From a virus, in IMG/VR virus record IMGVR_UViG_3300046413_000387, positions 1 through 41,135 of that record: a stretch of DNA of 41,135 bases, one strand, 5' to 3'. The notes under the pieces were generated by a model. The model was not told where the DNA came from. It made no database searches and worked only from the letters and a program-made list of their open reading frames with translations. Shown here in pieces: positions 2,746 to 19,358 of the stretch. Position 1 is the first letter of the stretch; every line of letters begins with the position of its first letter. Both the position numbers and the translations under genes were made by a program.

Positions 2746-3627
2746 ATGGCAAAACTTAGATATAGCGAAGCATTTTATTCAGTACAAGGCGAGGGTAGAT
2801 TCGTAGGAGTCCCTAGTATCTTCCTTAGAGTCTTTGGTTGTAATTTTGAATGTAGAGGTTTTGGTCAGGAACGAGGCAAACTTATTCCTGTAGAAGAAAT
2901 GCCCTATATGACAGATCCTAGAGCAGAAAAGGATAATGAAATAGCATATAAAAGTATCGAAGAACTTCCTGTTACTCCTATAGGTTGTGATAGTTCAGCA
3001 TCTTGGGCGATGAAATACAAACATTTACAATTAACAAAGACAATAGACGAGGTGTTTGAACATATAATTAGTTTACTTCCTAATAATAAATTTGATGAGA
3101 GAGAAGATATACATTTAGTTATTACAGGTGGCGAACCTTTATTAGGTTGGCAAAGAGTTTGGCCTGAACTATTAGAAAGGTGTAAAGAAGTAGGTTTGAA
3201 GAATGTAACATTTGAAACAAATGGAACACAGAACTTACAACAACAATTTATAGATTATTTAAATGAAGATGGAAAAGACATTCATATTACATGGTCAACA
3301 TCTCCTAAATTATCTATCTCAGGTGAGGATCAATTCGATGCCCTTATTCCTGAAGCACTATTAGATATGAACAAGGTAACTAACAGTCATTTATATAATA
3401 AATTTGTCGTTAGAGACTATATAGATTTTGAAGAAGTAGATTTATTTGTTGATGAATATAAATCTGCTGGTGTTGTTCTGGATGCAGTTTATTGCATGCC
3501 AGAAGGCGCAACGTTGGAACAACAAGCCCTAACAGAAAAGGATGTTGCAGAAGCCTGTATGAAAACAGGTTACAAGTTTAGTCCAAGGTTGCATATTACA
3601 TTATTCGGGAACGCATGGGGAACATAG
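2746..3627 (+). CDS. queE: QueE, 7-carboxy-7-deazaguanine synthase
   Basis: A radical SAM enzyme that converts 6-carboxytetrahydropterin to 7-carboxy-7-deazaguanine (CDG), the third step of the preQ0 pathway. Hallmarks seen: the N-terminal YSVQGEG (residues 11-17), cysteines in GCNFEC (C32 and C36), and TGGEPLL (SAM-binding GGE at 128-130). The usual CxxxCxxC cluster motif is not compact: no third Cys follows C36 at two-residue spacing, and the next Cys is C81 in IGCDSSASW after an insertion of about 45 residues. QueE families do vary in this loop, so C32, C36 and C81 are my proposed cluster ligands. At 293 residues it is longer than typical QueE (about 210-230). It opens the cluster with folE, dpdA and queD; its end overlaps the next gene by 13 bases. 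Confidence 0.92.
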   Translation: MAKLRYSEAFYSVQGEGRFVGVPSIFLRVFGCNFECRGFGQERGKLIPVEEMPYMTDPRAEKDNEIAYKSIEELPVTPIGCDSSASWAMKYKHLQLTKTIDEVFEHIISLLPNNKFDEREDIHLVITGGEPLLGWQRVWPELLERCKEVGLKNVTFETNGTQNLQQQFIDYLNEDGKDIHITWSTSPKLSISGEDQFDALIPEALLDMNKVTNSHLYNKFVVRDYIDFEEVDLFVDEYKSAGVVLDAVYCMPEGATLEQQALTEKDVAEACMKTGYKFSPRLHITLFGNAWGT

Positions 3628-4040
3628 ACGTAACTTGGAATACAATAAACGAACAAGTAGAACACATTAGTGATTTGGTAAAACAGAATAATATTGACAT
3701 GATTGTAGGTGTTGCTAGAGGAGGATTGGTTCCCGCAGTAATGGTTTCAAATAAAACAAAGGTTCCTATGCAATGCTTAGAGTGGCAAACAAGAGACGGC
3801 AACGGAACAGACAGAAAAAAACTTATAGAATTACAGCTTGATAAATATAATTGTCTGTTCATAGATGATATATGTGATACAGGCAAAACAATATATGGTA
3901 TAAGAGAATTGTTTCCAGGCGCTAAGTTTGCTGTTTTATTTAACAAAATGGTTGACATGGAGCTTGACTTTGAGGGAATAAGACTCTATAATAATACACA
4001 ATACCAGTTAAAACAATGGATAAATTTTCCCTGGGAGTAA
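3615..4040 (+). CDS. Gpt-like purine phosphoribosyltransferase
   Basis: A type I phosphoribosyltransferase of 141 residues. The PRPP-binding loop is LFIDDICDTGKT at 81-92, and VGVARGGLVPA at 31-41 is the second conserved loop. The pattern resembles E. coli Gpt (xanthine-guanine phosphoribosyltransferase): an N-terminal TW, the VARGGLVP loop, then IREL.P.AKFAVLFNK after the PRPP loop, and a closing INFPWE. The expected reaction is a purine base plus PRPP giving a nucleotide. Its position between queE and folE suggests it supplies guanine nucleotides to FolE or handles a 7-deazaguanine base; that role is inference. The ATG lies inside the queE end and the stop is 3 bases before folE. Confidence 0.85.
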   Translation: MGNIDVTWNTINEQVEHISDLVKQNNIDMIVGVARGGLVPAVMVSNKTKVPMQCLEWQTRDGNGTDRKKLIELQLDKYNCLFIDDICDTGKTIYGIRELFPGAKFAVLFNKMVDMELDFEGIRLYNNTQYQLKQWINFPWE

Positions 4041-4043
4041 AAT

Positions 4044-4727
4044 ATGGAAGTAAGTAAAAAGATAAAAGAACGTTTGGATAAAATAGGCAAAAGATATTAC
4101 GCAGCGGATAATATCTCAGAAGTTATGTTGCCTGGTGAGAAACAAGAACTGATTGACGAACTAGCACCTAAGTTTAATGAAGTATTAAAGTCATTAGTTA
4201 TTGATACAGAAAACGATCCTAATAGTATTGACACAGGCAGACGTATGGCCAAGATGTATGTTAATGAAATTATGTCAGGTAGGTATAACACTATGCCAGA
4301 TCCTAATAGTTTCCCTAACTATATTGAAAATGGATACGAAGGTATGTTGGTTGTGAGAAGTGAATTAAAAAGTTTATGTTCACATCATCATCAACCAGTT
4401 ACAGGTATTGCTTATATAGGAATTATTGCAGGCGATAAACTATTAGGGCTAAGTAAGTACACAAGAATTGCACAATGGTGCGCTATGCGAGGTACATTAC
4501 AAGAAGAACTTAATGTAATGATAGCAGATGAAATACAAAGACAATGTGAAACAGAACACGTAGGTGTCTACATACAGGCAACACATGGATGCTGTGAGAA
4601 CAGAGGTATTAGAGCTCATAGTTCTTTAACACAAACAACTGTCTTAAGAGGCGGTTTTAAAAATGCAGACTTGAAGAAAGAATTCTTCGATAACATAACA
4701 CAACAACAAATGGTATCACCTAGATAA
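4044..4727 (+). CDS. folE: FolE, GTP cyclohydrolase I
   Basis: Converts GTP to 7,8-dihydroneopterin triphosphate, the first step for folate and for 7-deazaguanines. It is 227 residues, the normal size for the family. Zinc ligand candidates are C112 and H115 in SLCSHHHQP and C183 in THGCCENRG. Other family signatures visible are LLGLSKYTRIAQW and GTLQEELN. It sits inside the queE-dpdA-queD cluster, so feeding 7-deazaguanine synthesis is more likely here than folate supply. The stop codon overlaps the next ATG by one base (TAATG), so translation of the following exonuclease is probably coupled. Confidence 0.95.
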   Translation: MEVSKKIKERLDKIGKRYYAADNISEVMLPGEKQELIDELAPKFNEVLKSLVIDTENDPNSIDTGRRMAKMYVNEIMSGRYNTMPDPNSFPNYIENGYEGMLVVRSELKSLCSHHHQPVTGIAYIGIIAGDKLLGLSKYTRIAQWCAMRGTLQEELNVMIADEIQRQCETEHVGVYIQATHGCCENRGIRAHSSLTQTTVLRGGFKNADLKKEFFDNITQQQMVSPR

Positions 4728-12153: not shown

Positions 12154-12168
12154 CAAGTGGAATTCAAT

Positions 12169-12510
12169 ATGGAAACATATAGACCATTACCAAAAGGTTT
12201 AACGATACTAGAATCCAAAATAGATGGATTAGGATTACACGCATCTATGCCTCATAATGCAGGAACAGTATTTGGAGAAACTCATGTCTTAGTACATAGT
12301 AGAGATAGACATGAATGGATTAGAACTCCACTAGGAGGTTTTATAAATCATAGTAATACTCCTAATTGTTTTATTACAACGGATGCGGGAGACAGAACTT
12401 TATACGCAATAAAGCCCATTAAAAAAGGCGAAGAGATAACAGTATTTTATAGATTTAAAGGGTACGATGGTATCATAGGAGATACTGGAGCACCTGACAT
12501 AGGATGTTAA
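12169..12510 (+). CDS. Small SET-domain protein
   Basis: A 113-residue protein that is almost entirely a SET domain, the fold of protein lysine methyltransferases. Visible motifs: GLGLHASMPHNAGTV (SAM-binding G.G element), GGFINHSNTPNC (the NHS.xPNC core with pseudoknot residues), and LYAIKPIKKGEEITVFY (closing GEE.t..Y). ATG 12169 was chosen; GTG 12157 in the same frame is possible and adds four residues. The pre- and post-SET cysteine domains are absent, as in many bacterial and viral stand-alone SET proteins. The substrate is unknown; a host or phage protein lysine is the family expectation. Confidence 0.87.
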   Translation: METYRPLPKGLTILESKIDGLGLHASMPHNAGTVFGETHVLVHSRDRHEWIRTPLGGFINHSNTPNCFITTDAGDRTLYAIKPIKKGEEITVFYRFKGYDGIIGDTGAPDIGC

Positions 12511-13104: not shown

Positions 13105-13458
13105 ATGGCAGACGATACTTTTGATTTCGGATTCACGGCTGTAGATGAACCAAGTGATAATGTACAGCAGCCTGGACCTGCTCTAAATAATGATGAAGTG
13201 CTTGATAAATTACAGCAGTTAGAAGCTAAAATTTTACAAGCAGATAATTCAAATATGGTGAACGAACATAGGGCTCTTATCGAGTCAGATGTTGCAAGCA
13301 AACTTCGTGATGTTGAAGATCTTGTACTACCTTTACTATATAATTTACAAAAGAATCCTGAAAAGGAATATATTCATTGGCCAAATAGAACGACTATTAT
13401 TGATAAACAAATTGAAAAAATTAAGGCGGTAACAAGATACTATGAGCGAATCAACTAA
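13105..13458 (+). CDS. Small conserved phage protein, unknown
   Basis: A 117-residue acidic protein with a good ribosome site (ACAGGAGAACAAA before ATG). The first 30 residues are low-complexity and probably disordered. Residues 33-80 look helical or coiled (EVLDKLQQLEAKILQ). The C-terminal part holds YIHWPNRTTIIDKQIEKI, a pattern I recognise as recurrent in small proteins of marine T4-like phages. No enzymatic motif is visible. It overlaps the ClpP-like gene by 17 bases. Confidence 0.8.
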   Translation: MADDTFDFGFTAVDEPSDNVQQPGPALNNDEVLDKLQQLEAKILQADNSNMVNEHRALIESDVASKLRDVEDLVLPLLYNLQKNPEKEYIHWPNRTTIIDKQIEKIKAVTRYYERIN

Positions 13459-14044
13459 ACCAATAAACAATCCTCAGCAACTAGGTAACGCATTCGAACG
13501 CCCGGTTGCTAGGATATTTGATTTATATCTCTCAGGCGCAATAGAATCGGCAGAGAAATATCAGGATTGGAACCAGATTTTACGGTCATCAGGTGAAAAT
13601 GATGTAATCGTAATGCACATCAATAGCAATGGAGGTAATATATTTACTTGTATTCAATTGATGCGAAGTATAAGGGAGACTCAAGGAACAGTCGTAGCTT
13701 CAGTAGAAGGTATGTGTTTCTCAGCAGCAACTCTTTTATTCTTAGTTTCTGATGTATGTGAAATTAGCGAGCACTCGCACTTTATGTTTCATACATACAG
13801 TTCAGGAGCTTGGGGAAAAGGTAACGAACAGTTAGAGTCAGTTATGGCTGATGATAAGTGGGCTCGTGCTTTATTTAAAGACGTATATAAAGACTTCTTA
13901 TCATCAGATGAGCTAAAAGAAATGATGCAAGGTAGGGACTTTTGGTTATCAGCAGATGAAGTTACAAAACGTCTCGAGGCAAGGAATAAGAAAAACGCAA
14001 AAGCTCAACCTCGTAAAAAGCTATTGCAAAAACAAGGAAAGTAA
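13442..14044 (+). CDS. ClpP-like serine protease
   Basis: A 200-residue crotonase-fold protease. The catalytic triad is readable: S94 in GMCFSAATLLF, H117 in FMFHTYSSG, and D166 in GRDFWLSADEV. The INSNGG oxyanion-hole strand lies at 60-65. The closest pattern is ClpP, although the Ser motif is CFSAA rather than the usual ASMAA. The C-terminal tail is very basic (KKNAKAQPRKKLLQKQGK). In phages such proteases may act as a prohead protease or work with host Clp ATPases; the distance from head genes here favours the latter, as inference. Its stop overlaps the ATG of the outer-membrane receptor gene by one base. Confidence 0.9.
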   Translation: MSESTKPINNPQQLGNAFERPVARIFDLYLSGAIESAEKYQDWNQILRSSGENDVIVMHINSNGGNIFTCIQLMRSIRETQGTVVASVEGMCFSAATLLFLVSDVCEISEHSHFMFHTYSSGAWGKGNEQLESVMADDKWARALFKDVYKDFLSSDELKEMMQGRDFWLSADEVTKRLEARNKKNAKAQPRKKLLQKQGK

Positions 14045-15591
14045 TGAAAAATATATTATGGGCGCTACTATTCGCCTTACTAACTACCACGGCTACTGCT
14101 GAAGAAGTAGAAGAAGTGATTGTTGTCGGAGCATATATTGTTGAAGGCAATGCAGACGTAGAATATGATGACACTTTATTGGAATCTATTATGCCAACTA
14201 AAAGTTATGTCGCAGGAGGCCCTGGAGCCTTTCAAGGCATTATGTTGAATGGTACTGATACTAAGCATACAGCTGTTTATAAAAATGGTGTACCTGTTAA
14301 TGATCCTAGTTCTGGGTGGTTCGATTTCGGAACAGAACTAATTACAGGACAGAATACAAAACTTATATCAGGACCTAATAGTGTACAATTTGGAAGTGGC
14401 TCAATGGGTGGAGTAGTTCTTATAGAGGACGACTTAAAACAAAGAGAGTTTATCAGTAAAATTGCTGATGATAAAACATTCTTATTTACATCAATTGATG
14501 GTTTTCAGTTAGCACATTATAAAGGGACAAATGGTTCTGTTAGAAGTGATAATACAGAAAACGATTGGTATGAAAATACAACTGCTAAATTTGGTGGTGA
14601 TGTAAATGGTTGGAGTATCAGAGGAGAATATACTGATTACAATTATGATTACGATAATTGTTGGATGCCTGATTTCTCAGTATCTAATATATGTAATCAA
14701 GACGGAGAGAAAACATTTTTATCTGTAAGAAATGATATTGTTACTATAGGTTATATGAGTAATGATGCAACACATAATACAGGGTTTGAATTAGACACAG
14801 AAAGATATTATCTTGATGCAACAGTTTACCAAGGTTATGGTATGGAGTTAGGGCTTACAGGACAGAAAGAAACATACAACAAAATAGATAGAGATATTGG
14901 TTCCGTATGGTTTACTTGGACAGATGACAGAGGAGTTTCTGTTGGATTACGCTACGAAGAAGATGCTGAAATTATCAGAGTAGGATACGAAACTGATGTT
15001 GTAAAAGTTTCTGTAGGTAATAGTTACAGACGTCCTAATCTATATGAAGAAAATGGTGACGACTGGGTATCAGCAAATCCTAATCTACTTCCTGAGGAAG
15101 GCATGGGTATTGATGTAACTTGGAACAAATTCTCAGCATTCTATAATGAATTTAAAGAAGGTATTGATTTCGATATGTCAGCATATCAATATGTGAACAC
15201 AGGTTCATACGATGCTTATGGTCTTAAATTTATGAATCAATGGGTAACGAACACAGGGTCATTCTTTTTCTCTACTACATATACACAAACAGATAAAATC
15301 AGAGTTCCTGATTGGATGACTAAAATATCATACTGGACAGCAGGAAGAATAGGTAGTATCCCATGGACTGCAGAGGTAGCATACATCTCAGAACTTAATA
15401 AAGGGGCTGACTTTGATGGCAGAGAAATCGACGATGTAGACAACATAGATCTACGTTGGTCCATACAACCTACTGCTAAGTCTACATTAATGTTCGCGAT
15501 TAATGATGTTTTAGACAATAATTTTGAAGTTTTACCCGATTATCCAGCAGGAGGACGTGAATTTACGCTAAGCTACCGCGTAACCTATTGA
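14044..15591 (+). CDS. TonB-dependent outer-membrane receptor, BtuB-type
   Basis: A 515-residue predicted outer-membrane protein. Residues 1-19 form a Sec signal peptide (MKNILWALLFALLTTTATA). The mature start EEVEEVIVVGA resembles the TonB box region of many receptors. The plug domain follows: LNGTDTKHTAVYKNGVPVNDPSSG, then LISGPNSVQFGSGSMGGVVLI, matching the BtuB-type plug (DGVPVNDP, GP.S.lYGSGA.GGV). The remaining 380 or so residues alternate polar and aromatic residues as beta-strands, ending FTLSYRVTY with the terminal aromatic needed for BAM assembly. The length is at the short end (E. coli BtuB about 600), so extracellular loops are probably trimmed. Two cysteines about 15 residues apart (NCWMPD, NICNQ) could form a loop disulfide. 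It is coupled to the ClpP-like gene by TAATG. Possible roles: cobalamin or siderophore uptake, or receptor masking. Confidence 0.87.
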   Translation: MKNILWALLFALLTTTATAEEVEEVIVVGAYIVEGNADVEYDDTLLESIMPTKSYVAGGPGAFQGIMLNGTDTKHTAVYKNGVPVNDPSSGWFDFGTELITGQNTKLISGPNSVQFGSGSMGGVVLIEDDLKQREFISKIADDKTFLFTSIDGFQLAHYKGTNGSVRSDNTENDWYENTTAKFGGDVNGWSIRGEYTDYNYDYDNCWMPDFSVSNICNQDGEKTFLSVRNDIVTIGYMSNDATHNTGFELDTERYYLDATVYQGYGMELGLTGQKETYNKIDRDIGSVWFTWTDDRGVSVGLRYEEDAEIIRVGYETDVVKVSVGNSYRRPNLYEENGDDWVSANPNLLPEEGMGIDVTWNKFSAFYNEFKEGIDFDMSAYQYVNTGSYDAYGLKFMNQWVTNTGSFFFSTTYTQTDKIRVPDWMTKISYWTAGRIGSIPWTAEVAYISELNKGADFDGREIDDVDNIDLRWSIQPTAKSTLMFAINDVLDNNFEVLPDYPAGGREFTLSYRVTY

Positions 15592-15632: not shown

Positions 15633-15661
15633 TTGACTTTAGCTTCTATAGGTGCTATCAT
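15633..15661 (+). promoter_or_regulatory. Early-type promoter, TATCAT subclass, before cobT-like gene
   Basis: TTGACT (15633-15638), 17-base spacer, TATCAT (15656-15661). The spacer starts TTAGCTTC. The segment 15653-15680, running from TGC before the -10 into the leader (ATACACATAAACT then six A), is identical to those at 18100-18127 and 36612-36639. This is the only promoter-like site between the receptor gene and the 784-residue gene. Confidence 0.85.
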
Positions 15662-15696
15662 ATACACATAAACTAAAAAAGTGAGGATTTTTAGCA

Positions 15697-18051
15697 GTGA
15701 ATGAGATAAAACAAAAATCAGTATTAGCGAAGTTATTAGCAACAGAAGATATAGCTGTTGTACATGACTCAAAAATGCCTACTGCGGCATTCGATGTAAA
15801 AGAACGTACATTGTATTTGCCAGTATTTAAGAAAATGTCTGAGGACTTATACGACCTCTTTATTGGACATGAAGTAGGACACGCACATCATACTCCTGAA
15901 GAAGGATGGCATGATGCCGTATGTGATACACCTGAGCTAAAGGGTTTCTACAACATTATAGAAGACGCACGTATAGAAAGAAAAATTAAAGCCCAGTATC
16001 CTGGTTTAGCGTCCTCATTCTACAAAGGTTACAAAGAATTATTTGATAAAGACTTTTTTGGTATTAGAGGTCGTGACATCAACACATTCCCATTCGCAGA
16101 CAGAATTAACATTCACTTTAAAATAGGCCACATGGCTAGCGTTAATTTTTCAGAAACAGAAAAAGTTTTTATAGAACGTATTGCAAAAGCAGAAACATGG
16201 GACGATGTTAAGACACTTTCACAAGAACTAGCAGGCATCTCAAAAGAAGAAGCAAAAGAACGTGCACAAGAAGGTGAAGAGTTACAGAAACAATTAGACG
16301 AACTTAAGGAAAAGATGGAAGGTATGCGAGGTGAGCAAACTCCTAATCCTGAGGACAAAGAATTGGATCAATGGGAAACACGATACGAAATAGAAAAAGA
16401 AGATCGTGAGAAAAATGAAGATGAAGATGGAAATGTTCCTGAAGATTACGAATTTGATCGTTACAGCGATGAAGTAACTAAAGAAGTTGATGAGCGTGTT
16501 AAAGATGCTGAGAAAAGACGTGAAGAATTTGAATCAACAGAAAAAGACTTACAAGAACTTGAAGCACAACAAAAAGAACTTGAAGAAGACTTAAAATTCC
16601 ATGAGGAAGAAGGTCAACATTCACAAACAGATTCTTGTTTCCGTAAAAATGAGGTTAAACTTGTTGATATGGACGCAGCACAGATGTTGTATGTAGACTT
16701 AGACGGTCCTACTGAACCAGAAGATGTTATAGTTCCAATGAACGAGTTATATAATTGGGAAGATTGTGTTACTCGTGAAGTTGGTTATGATACTAGAGAG
16801 TCTCAGCCCGAAGAACTTAAAAGATGGGGACTTAAAATGGCTCGTGATTACGAGGCATCTAACAGACCAGTAATTAATCAAATGGCTCAACAGTTTGAAC
16901 TTAGAAAAGCAGCAACAGGTTTCAAGAAAGCACGTATTTCTAAAACAGGTAAGTTGAATGAGGACAAATTGTGGGCATATAAGTTGACTGAAGACTTATT
17001 CCAACAAACTCAGGTTGTTCCTAACGGTAAAAATCACGGTATAATTATGTATGTTGATTTATCAGGCAGTATGTGCAACCACATTAAAGGTACAATAGAA
17101 CAAGCAATCAATGTTGGTATGTTCTGTAGAAAAGTTGGTATCCCTTTTGATGTTTATGGTTTTAGCGACTGTGGTAAAAGGTCAGAAAGACTAAAAGGTA
17201 AATTCAAATCATTAGATTTTGAAACAGGCCAGTTCATAGATTATGGCAATGTTAATCTAGTACATATGATTAGCTCTAAGTGTAAGAAAACAGAGTGGGA
17301 TAATGCAATGGCATATCTAATGTGCATGATGAAAGGTTATGAACGTGGTGGATATAGATACGATGATGAATACGAATATGTTTACATTACAAATTCGTTC
17401 TTCAGATTAGGAGGCACACCATTAAATCATGCACTAGCATATGCTCCTAAAATATCTAAGTTATTTAAGAAGCGTTATAACGTTGAAATACTTTCAACAA
17501 TATTCCTAACAGATGGTGGTGCAACTGATAACTTACAATGGTACAAAAGAACTGAAACTGATGATGAAGGCGAGAAATTTGTAAAAGTAGATTACGCTCG
17601 TGGCAAACAGCTTGTAGCAAAAGTAGGAGCTAGCACAGTAGCAGGACCTAAAATGAACGGTATGTATTATGAGAGAGATCCTGAAACTAAGTTCCTTATA
17701 GAGTATTACAAAAAGGTCACAGGTGACAGAATATTTAACTTCCACATAGTAGGTACAAAGCGTAGAGACTTTGAGTCAGAGTACAGCAGACGTTCAAAGA
17801 ACTACTGTTACCAGGAGTTTGATAAGTGGTATAAGACGGTACTTAAGAACAAATTTGGAGTGCTTATAGAGGACTCTGGTTGGGATACATCACTTATTAT
17901 TAAAGGTCAAAAGGACCTTCAGATAGACGATCAAGAACTTGAAGTAAAGAGCAACAAAAGAGGTGATTTACTCCGAGGATTTAAGAAGTTTAGTGGTACG
18001 AAACGTACTAGCAGAACTTTTGTTAACCAAATCATAGACTTAGTAGCATAA
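15697..18051 (+). CDS. CobT-like metallopeptidase/VWA protein
   Basis: A 784-residue protein with two recognisable domains. Residues 1-110 contain a zinc peptidase motif HEVGH at 58-62 followed by NIIEDARIERK at 86-96 (E89 and D90 as further ligands), as in the putative metallopeptidase domain that precedes VWA domains. Residues about 175-320 are highly charged coiled-coil. From about 445 a von Willebrand A domain begins, with MIDAS D454-L-S456-G-S458 in YVDLSGSM, and FLTDGGATDN further on. Phage annotations often name such proteins CobT, after the cobaltochelatase subunit, and they pair with CobS-type AAA+ ATPases, as here. Start GTG 15697; an ATG at 15701 is out of frame and stops at once. 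Whether it acts in cobalt insertion or as a MoxR-VWA chaperone pair is not settled. Confidence 0.85.
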   Translation: MNEIKQKSVLAKLLATEDIAVVHDSKMPTAAFDVKERTLYLPVFKKMSEDLYDLFIGHEVGHAHHTPEEGWHDAVCDTPELKGFYNIIEDARIERKIKAQYPGLASSFYKGYKELFDKDFFGIRGRDINTFPFADRINIHFKIGHMASVNFSETEKVFIERIAKAETWDDVKTLSQELAGISKEEAKERAQEGEELQKQLDELKEKMEGMRGEQTPNPEDKELDQWETRYEIEKEDREKNEDEDGNVPEDYEFDRYSDEVTKEVDERVKDAEKRREEFESTEKDLQELEAQQKELEEDLKFHEEEGQHSQTDSCFRKNEVKLVDMDAAQMLYVDLDGPTEPEDVIVPMNELYNWEDCVTREVGYDTRESQPEELKRWGLKMARDYEASNRPVINQMAQQFELRKAATGFKKARISKTGKLNEDKLWAYKLTEDLFQQTQVVPNGKNHGIIMYVDLSGSMCNHIKGTIEQAINVGMFCRKVGIPFDVYGFSDCGKRSERLKGKFKSLDFETGQFIDYGNVNLVHMISSKCKKTEWDNAMAYLMCMMKGYERGGYRYDDEYEYVYITNSFFRLGGTPLNHALAYAPKISKLFKKRYNVEILSTIFLTDGGATDNLQWYKRTETDDEGEKFVKVDYARGKQLVAKVGASTVAGPKMNGMYYERDPETKFLIEYYKKVTGDRIFNFHIVGTKRRDFESEYSRRSKNYCYQEFDKWYKTVLKNKFGVLIEDSGWDTSLIIKGQKDLQIDDQELEVKSNKRGDLLRGFKKFSGTKRTSRTFVNQIIDLVA

Positions 18052-18108: not shown

Positions 18109-18158
18109 ATACACATAAACTAAAAAAATAACTATTAAATCTTGTGAGGAGATATATT

Positions 18159-19358
18159 ATGAAAACAATTGATAGAGAAAACTTAGTACAAGCACTTCAA
18201 GCAGCCGATAATGGCACAGGTGTTTTTACTAGGAAACAAATAATCGAAACAGCACAATCAATAGGTGTTGGTTTCCCAGCCTGGTTAGTTAATAAGCCAG
18301 ATTATAAAGTTGATAGAGGAATCTATAACTTGACTGCAATGTTCGGAGGAACTGCACAGGCAATTGAACTTCCAAAGGCAGCCCCACAGGCTCCAATTAT
18401 GGAAATACAATCCAACGTAGCTCCAGCTCCCGAGGTATTGACTCAGGCAATTCTAAATGTAACCGTAGACAACTTAGTCCCACTCAAAGATGCGACTTAT
18501 GTTCCATATGGTTTCTTCAAGGACTTGAAAAAAGTTCTTACAAGTTCTATGTTTTACCCAATATTCATTAGCGGTTTATCTGGTAATGGTAAAACTACAA
18601 TGGTAGAACAAGTATGTGCGAACCTAAAACGTGAGGCGGTTCGTGTTAATATTAGTATTGAAACTGATGAAGATGATTTAATCGGTGGCAATACTCTAGT
18701 TGACGGTAACGTCGTGTATAGAGAAGGGCCCGTCCTCACAGCGATGAAACGCGGGGCTGTTCTTATACTTGATGAAGTAGACAGAGGTTCGAACAAGTTA
18801 ATGTGCTTACAAGCCATACTTGAGGGGAAACCTTACTTCAACAAGAAGACAGGCGAAACCGTAACTCCTGCTCCCGGCTTCAACATTGTTGCTACAGCCA
18901 ACACAAAAGGTCGAGGTTCAGATGATGGCAAGTTCATAAGTGCCAATATACTCGACGAGGCATTCCTAGAAAGGTTTGCAATTACCGTGGAGCAGGAGTA
19001 CCCTACTTTATCAACAGAGAAAAAGATTGTTCTAAACAAAATGAACAAGGCTAATTGTGTAGACGAGGAGTTTGCACTTCACTTAGTTACTTGGTCAGAT
19101 GTAATTCGTAAAACATATTACGAAGGTGCAATTGATGAACTGATCTCAACTCGTAGGTTAGAGCACATTGTAAATGCGTTTGCAATGTTTACAGATAAAA
19201 CTAAGGCAATTGAACTTTGTGTCAACAGGTTCGATGAAGATACTAAGGCAGCATTTATAGACTTGTATGCCAAAGTTGATCCTAGTGTACAGATTAACGA
19301 AGGTGACGATGAGATCCTAGACAACGAAAAGGCGGAGGAAGACTTTGGCGAAGAATAA
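18159..19358 (+). CDS. CobS-like AAA+ ATPase
   Basis: A 399-residue MoxR/CobS-type ATPase. Walker A is GLSGNGKT at 139-146, Walker B LILDEVD at 202-208, and the region after it (GFNIVATANTKGRGSDDG) holds sensor 1. The N-terminal 65 residues (GVGFPAWLVNKPDYKVDRGIYNL) match the N-terminus seen in CobS of marine T4-like phages. A Pro/Ala linker follows at about 72-95. The C-terminus is acidic. ATG 18159 is preferred to GTG 18144 because it has an ideal AGGAG ten bases upstream. The partner is the VWA protein encoded just before, but each has its own near-identical promoter, suggesting parallel early expression rather than one operon. Confidence 0.9.
   Translation: MKTIDRENLVQALQAADNGTGVFTRKQIIETAQSIGVGFPAWLVNKPDYKVDRGIYNLTAMFGGTAQAIELPKAAPQAPIMEIQSNVAPAPEVLTQAILNVTVDNLVPLKDATYVPYGFFKDLKKVLTSSMFYPIFISGLSGNGKTTMVEQVCANLKREAVRVNISIETDEDDLIGGNTLVDGNVVYREGPVLTAMKRGAVLILDEVDRGSNKLMCLQAILEGKPYFNKKTGETVTPAPGFNIVATANTKGRGSDDGKFISANILDEAFLERFAITVEQEYPTLSTEKKIVLNKMNKANCVDEEFALHLVTWSDVIRKTYYEGAIDELISTRRLEHIVNAFAMFTDKTKAIELCVNRFDEDTKAAFIDLYAKVDPSVQINEGDDEILDNEKAEEDFGEE

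Follow-up and report, generated by a model that had tools for sequence, protein, structure and literature searches.

A genome fragment of 41,135 nucleotides, which spans the whole analysed stretch of the viral record IMGVR_UViG_3300046413_000387 and is here called the window, carries among phage genes what looks like a bacterial outer-membrane nutrient receptor. The locus thus raises the question of whether a phage really owns a TonB-dependent receptor (TBDR) and, if so, what such a protein would do for it in the infected cell. The evidence points to a TBDR of the BtuB branch that belongs to a recurrent viral family, and favours, at a rough probability of 55%, its use as an importer of corrinoids.

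The receptor gene and its product

The reading frame predicted originally was borne out as an uninterrupted ORF of 515 residues with an ATG start (Table 1). This ATG overlaps the stop codon of the ClpP-like gene (TAATG), which implies translational coupling, and an AAGGA precedes it. The receptor is accordingly taken as the final member of a polycistron that also includes genes for an SbcCD-like nuclease, a SET-domain protein, a peptide deformylase and the ClpP-like protease. The T4-type surroundings and the neighbour-like codon use of the original prediction also held, as the adjoining genes are T4-type in the window annotation and the codon use of the receptor stays within the 95% limits that the remaining genes of the window predict.

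The signal peptide reads, by eye, as MKNILWALLFALLTTTATA followed by EE, and the proposed TonB-box-like start corresponds to EEVIVVG (residues 23-29), with E23, E24 and G29 invariant in all 57 distinct relatives. PF07715 recognized the plug at residues 48-124, with 29.3 bits where 23.9 would suffice, and its suggested BtuB type agrees with the best NCBIfam matches of the protein, which are BtuB models (7.8e-14 and 6.2e-13). An AlphaFold model built from 20 viral sequences has exactly the 22 barrel strands that the original prediction proposed to look for (residues 134-513; mean pLDDT 66, pTM 0.68). In Foldseek searches of the PDB the best hits were structures of E. coli BtuB (E 2.6e-14), and the top Foldseek and VIA matches were TBDRs only. 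VIA-align gave Z scores of 24-27 to BtuB and likewise to other TBDRs, so that the fold alone is insufficient to fix the ligand. Of the predicted C-terminal aromatic beta-signal, the terminal Tyr is present in the window receptor, but the last residue of its relatives is variously L, I, F, W, R or P, so that a terminal aromatic residue does not seem to be a family feature. With its plug, predicted 22-strand barrel and TonB box, the protein is by sequence and model a member of the TBDR superfamily, and as such would act in transport.

Table 1. Features of the receptor locus (window coordinates).
Feature	Position	Strand	Basis or remark
ClpP-like protease, same polycistron, directly 5' of receptor	13442..14044	+	
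Ribosome-binding site AAGGA	14034..14038	+	sequence
TonB-dependent receptor (BtuB-like), 515 aa	14044..15591	+	frame, Pfam, NCBIfam, AlphaFold, Foldseek, profile comparisons
Putative signal peptide, residues 1-19	14044..14100	+	by inspection: K, hydrophobic core, ATA/E
TonB box VEEVIVVG, residues 22-29	14107..14130	+	greatest conservation within the family
Plug domain, residues about 45-130	14176..14433	+	Pfam match 48-124
Predicted 22-strand beta-barrel, residues 131-513 (strands 134-513)	14434..15582	+	AlphaFold, Foldseek, VIA
Extracellular loop L2 region, residues 164-178, GSVRSDNTENDWYEN	14533..14577	+	aligns with BtuB B12/Ca2+ loop (D193, D195)
Loop L3 region, residues 199-223	14638..14712	+	Y203/D204 align with BtuB Y229/D230
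Sigma70-like promoter (phage promoter family), 3' of receptor, drives next gene	15633..15666	+	
CobT-like 'peptidase' (phrog_459), downstream neighbour	15697..18051	+	VWA-type DLSGSM motif
CobS-like AAA+ ATPase (phrog_249)	18144..19358	+	

Several other features of the window deserve mention. Near-identical sigma70-like promoters (TTGACTTT.GGTTC...TATMAT, 17-bp spacing) sit in intergenic gaps at 15633, 18080, 26784, 36592, 37196 and 40721, and related versions occur in other phages of the clade. The CobT-like gene shares 75% identity with its counterpart in L014, as compared to 86-96% for most neighbours, and so diverges faster. A SET-domain protein of 117 residues (12157-12510) is kept in related phages. 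Consecutive QueE-like, phosphoribosyltransferase and FolE genes (2746-4727), as well as a QueC gene in a 170-kb relative (L047 13351-14034), were also found, and together they make 7-deazaguanine DNA modification probable.

A phage gene and its likely host

A host-phage chimera, or a passenger host gene decaying without function, is excluded. A second contig of 59.6 kb, which carries the capsid gene gp23, shows 4 mismatches over 21.5 kb with the window (99.98% identity), and gp23 also occurs on contigs of 170 kb, 161 kb and 57 kb that bear receptor relatives and on four further contigs with a TBDR, eight records in all (G001, G002, G004, G005, G047, G049, G050 and G055). These linkages, together with the fitting codon use and dN/dS values of 0.08-0.32 in all close pairs compared, well below 1, rule out both chimera and decay, as does the conservation of the gene throughout the clade.

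By gp23, the nearest isolates are the T4-like pelagimyophages HTVC008M and Mosig and the OM43 phage Melnitz (68-72%; Melnitz 72%, SAR11 phages 68-70%), which indicates only a neighbourhood of OM43/SAR11 phages, and the window holds no tRNA for host assignment. HTVC008M shares with the clade of the window the gene order from SbcC to CobT-CobS, but lacks the receptor in the syntenic slot, and its SAR11 host HTCC1062 has no TBDTs (PMC3400609). On the other hand, SAR86 bacteria have btuB throughout (PMC11582366), and the OM43 host of Melnitz keeps btuB under a cobalamin riboswitch (PMC9004378). The host of the window phage is likely a TonB-bearing proteobacterium other than SAR11.

Pelagimyophages and Melnitz are reported to carry instead the outer-membrane curli genes CsgG/F (PMC7029224, PMC9004378), and the papers describing them report no TonB genes. 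TBDRs of uncultured phages have already been mentioned in passing. A SusC-like receptor of 805 residues is likewise assigned to an uncultured marine phage (A0A8D9FQQ5 in BFVD), but with 11% identity it belongs to a different family, whereas reconstructions of hot-spring phages list TBDRs among the genes of phage contigs in one sentence, with the type unstated and with no family analysis (PMC6302217). Searches confined to the open literature gave no account of phage-encoded BtuB-like receptors.

A recurrent and exchanged viral family

Successive scans of IMG/VR viral contigs revealed 11, then 26 and then at least 151 contigs with relatives (38-100% identity), and the receptor is, by sequence, a viral family that recurs in and is exchanged between phages. 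The original prediction had included neither this family nor the probable arrival of the window copy from another phage lineage; its suggestion of an old acquisition is supported by the breadth of the family, by its several synteny groups and by purifying selection. No relative was found in isolated phages, nor did PHROGs contain a family for the receptor, and tblastn against 50,697 phage records gave no relative with either the window protein or a group C member as query. A group D member matched there only bacterial BtuB contigs mislabelled as phage, and most of the BtuB-like matches in INPHARED came from bacteria (assemblies of Salmonella that include 16S rRNA, and Acinetobacter contigs) or from short unannotated fragments. 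AFYI01000005 and CAKLQH020000002 are examples of bacterial contigs filed in the phages collection, in which btuB occurs together with 16S rRNA or several TBDRs are present. The search for close bacterial homologues that had been proposed retrieved none in two pattern scans of bacterial genomes, which need exact conserved peptides and could therefore be escaped by distant relatives.

Within the clade of the window, whose members share at least 76% identity in CobS, a receptor occupies the interval between the ClpP-like protease and the CobT-like/CobS pair at all loci that span it. The same interval is empty or occupied by other genes in outgroup phages, and a profile search found no receptor in 24 outgroup records with a query that was positive in other records. 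In other phages the location of the receptor changes: in L025 and L029-L031 it adjoins an SbcD-like gene, group B, a sister lineage with gp23 88% identical, has it in a different place, group C (gp23 61%) near a gp32-like gene and group D near a UvsX-like gene, the gp32 and UvsX names being given by eye.

The history of the gene seems to be one of replacement. In the tree, whose few bacterial rows are all long branches, the window receptor joins those of groups B and C (support 97/97), apart from the same-slot receptors of its close relatives, and a single clade of the slot receptors and the nested A2 group was rejected (p-AU 0.018). Since these close relatives share 94-96% of capsid identity with the window and only about 43-46% in the receptor, the gene was probably replaced in the lineage of the window by a copy that, as judged from the sequences, is closer to the receptors of other phages.

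Most clade members encode directly upstream of the receptor a secreted glycine-zipper-like protein of 137-199 residues (e.g. L026 2678-3121, L028 9492-9959, L070 5142-5585), and Pfam recognized none of the three that were compared with it. The lineage of the window, in which a swap of the receptor is probable, has no counterpart at that spot. A long coiled-coil membrane protein with a weak tetraspanin-like match lies upstream of a group B receptor (L038 8659-9996), and a similar-looking one elsewhere in the 170-kb phage (L047 16104-17585).

Relationship to BtuB and the question of the ligand

The original prediction left cobalamin and iron as candidate ligands. Comparisons of sequence profiles single out BtuB. 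A 47-member viral profile found BtuB as the only strong match among PDB sequences (1.5e-24; next 2.5e-4), and among eight TBDRs of E. coli K-12 it scored 88 bits with BtuB, 18 with CirA and less than 10 with the others; the next-ranking relative, a plasmid TBDR (70 bits), adjoins cobO and cobN. The match to BtuB extended over the full length in hhalign (99%), and two vitamin B12 receptor models were the best in NCBIfam for 16 and 13 of 20 viral members.

The calcium cage of BtuB, which we take to be D179, D193, D195, D230 and D241, is aspartate at all five positions in the K-12 sequence. In the viral alignment, the residues at D195, D230 and Y229 are kept in 57 of 57 receptors, Y579 in 56 and D193 in 45, but D179 and D241 are not kept, and the five-aspartate cage is thus incomplete. 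BtuB binds B12 through loops L2-L5, holds two calcium ions with five aspartates and touches B12 with Y229, D230 and Y579 (PMC7360065). The viral site is therefore, by sequence, BtuB-like but not identical to that of BtuB.

Both proteins share the plug, the TonB box, the 22-strand barrel (predicted in the virus) and these residues of L2, L3 and L11, and BtuB is the best match in both sequence-profile and Foldseek comparisons. However, the viral receptor has about 20% identity to BtuB, falls short of its length by about 100 residues, has very short loops and an invariant cysteine pair in the L3 region (C206/C217), and is encoded by a phage. No cobalamin riboswitch was found in the window or in 19 related loci. 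The missing aspartates, the lack of riboswitches and scores far below the BtuB equivalog cut-offs (TIGR01779, 51 bits against 599.7; NF007926, 48 against 836) are the reasons why the receptor is not classed here as an ortholog of BtuB.

A BtuB-like scaffold could also serve the uptake of iron, as siderophore or heme, or of another non-corrinoid ligand. Some members show weak matches to heme/hemoglobin families (best 1.6e-6) and the structures of ZnuD, HasR and OprC score as high as BtuB in VIA, but CirA, FepA, FecA, FhuA, FhuE and Fiu do not exceed 18 bits and it is the residues of the B12 loops that are conserved. The BtuB-specific match thus disfavours the iron part of the original prediction, and this reading is improbable as a whole.

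Genes that would use B12 were also considered. A B12-dependent ribonucleotide reductase was discarded as the reason for uptake, since the enzyme of L047 is of class I (NrdA and NrdB) and TIGR02504 matches elsewhere fell below the cut-off. An association with B12-binding radical SAM genes was equally unconvincing, these being only slightly commoner in records with a TBDR (6/23) than in those without (3/24). Near the receptor/CobS region, L027 (5377-6840), L073 (5953-7401) and L045 (13514-15073) encode radical SAM proteins whose N-terminal part weakly matches a B12-binding domain.

A probable role during infection

The distribution of conservation bears on what the receptor does. In 57 distinct near-full-length viral proteins, mean column entropy rises from the TonB box (0.70 bits) through the plug (1.08), extracellular loops (1.32) and strands (1.74) to the periplasmic turns (2.34), the sides of the loops being inferred from strand order, and hypervariable loops are absent. 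A conserved ligand face, plug and TonB box are what should be expected of a working TonB-coupled transporter; in a decoy or a mimic of a receptor, variation would be expected on the outside, and a TonB box would be superfluous.

The main rival of an importer is a remodelling of the cell surface, in which the phage protein would replace, dilute or block a BtuB-like phage receptor of the host and so confer resistance to superinfection, as the original prediction had also suggested. TBDRs of the BtuB/FhuA type are well-established entry points for phages, and in T5 the protein Llp blocks FhuA (PMC9586334; 8a60). The receptors, moreover, differ by more than 50% between phages of nearly identical capsid, apparently swapped like genes of an arms race. 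However, extracellular loops that are more conserved than the strands, and a TonB box and plug that are the most conserved parts of all, fit masking less well than corrinoid uptake, and surface remodelling is an unlikely explanation, if one to be taken seriously. Even less probable is that an abundant phage receptor acts as a sink that titrates host TonB and silences the TonB-dependent entry of other phages or toxins, ligand uptake being incidental; the TonB box as most conserved segment would agree with this, but the conserved extracellular loops and plug would be left unexplained.

The preferred reading, a TonB-coupled corrinoid (B12-type) importer carried by marine T4-like phages and active during infection, would start with translation from an early/middle-type polycistron that holds recombination nuclease genes. 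The signal peptide would direct secretion of the receptor, which would assemble as a plugged 22-strand barrel. A search of phage records gave no TonB gene, so that the TonB box would couple the receptor to the TonB-ExbBD of the host. Scarce corrinoids would then be brought into the periplasm and taken over by host transporters, and cobalamin-dependent steps (e.g. host MetH, folate/methionine turnover or radical-SAM enzymes) would no longer limit phage production. This importer is supported by the fixed slot in the clade and the size of the family, and by a HTVC008M devoid of receptor in a host devoid of TBDTs. Against it stand the loss of D179/D241, the low identity to BtuB, the lack of riboswitch and of B12-dependent reductase, the barely enriched radical SAM genes and the fact that a lytic phage benefits from uptake within one infection cycle only.

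Biological meaning

Vitamin B12 is scarce and needed by many marine bacteria. The metabolic genes described in phages up to now have mostly intracellular roles. The presence of a BtuB-related receptor in marine T4-like phages suggests that these viruses also reprogram how infected cells import nutrients across their surface, which, if true, would give them control over an energised outer-membrane nutrient transporter. As a tentative extension, somewhat short of an even chance, these compact BtuB-like transporters may form a large clade specific to viruses and be a standard exchangeable module with which marine T4-like phages of TonB-bearing bacteria seize B12 from seawater during infection. 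The receptor also links phage infection to a receptor class by which many phages enter, so that a single gene would give experimental access to both uptake and superinfection control. An energised outer-membrane importer that is fixed in a clade, recurrent and exchanged would mean that viruses set what the infected cell takes up from seawater.
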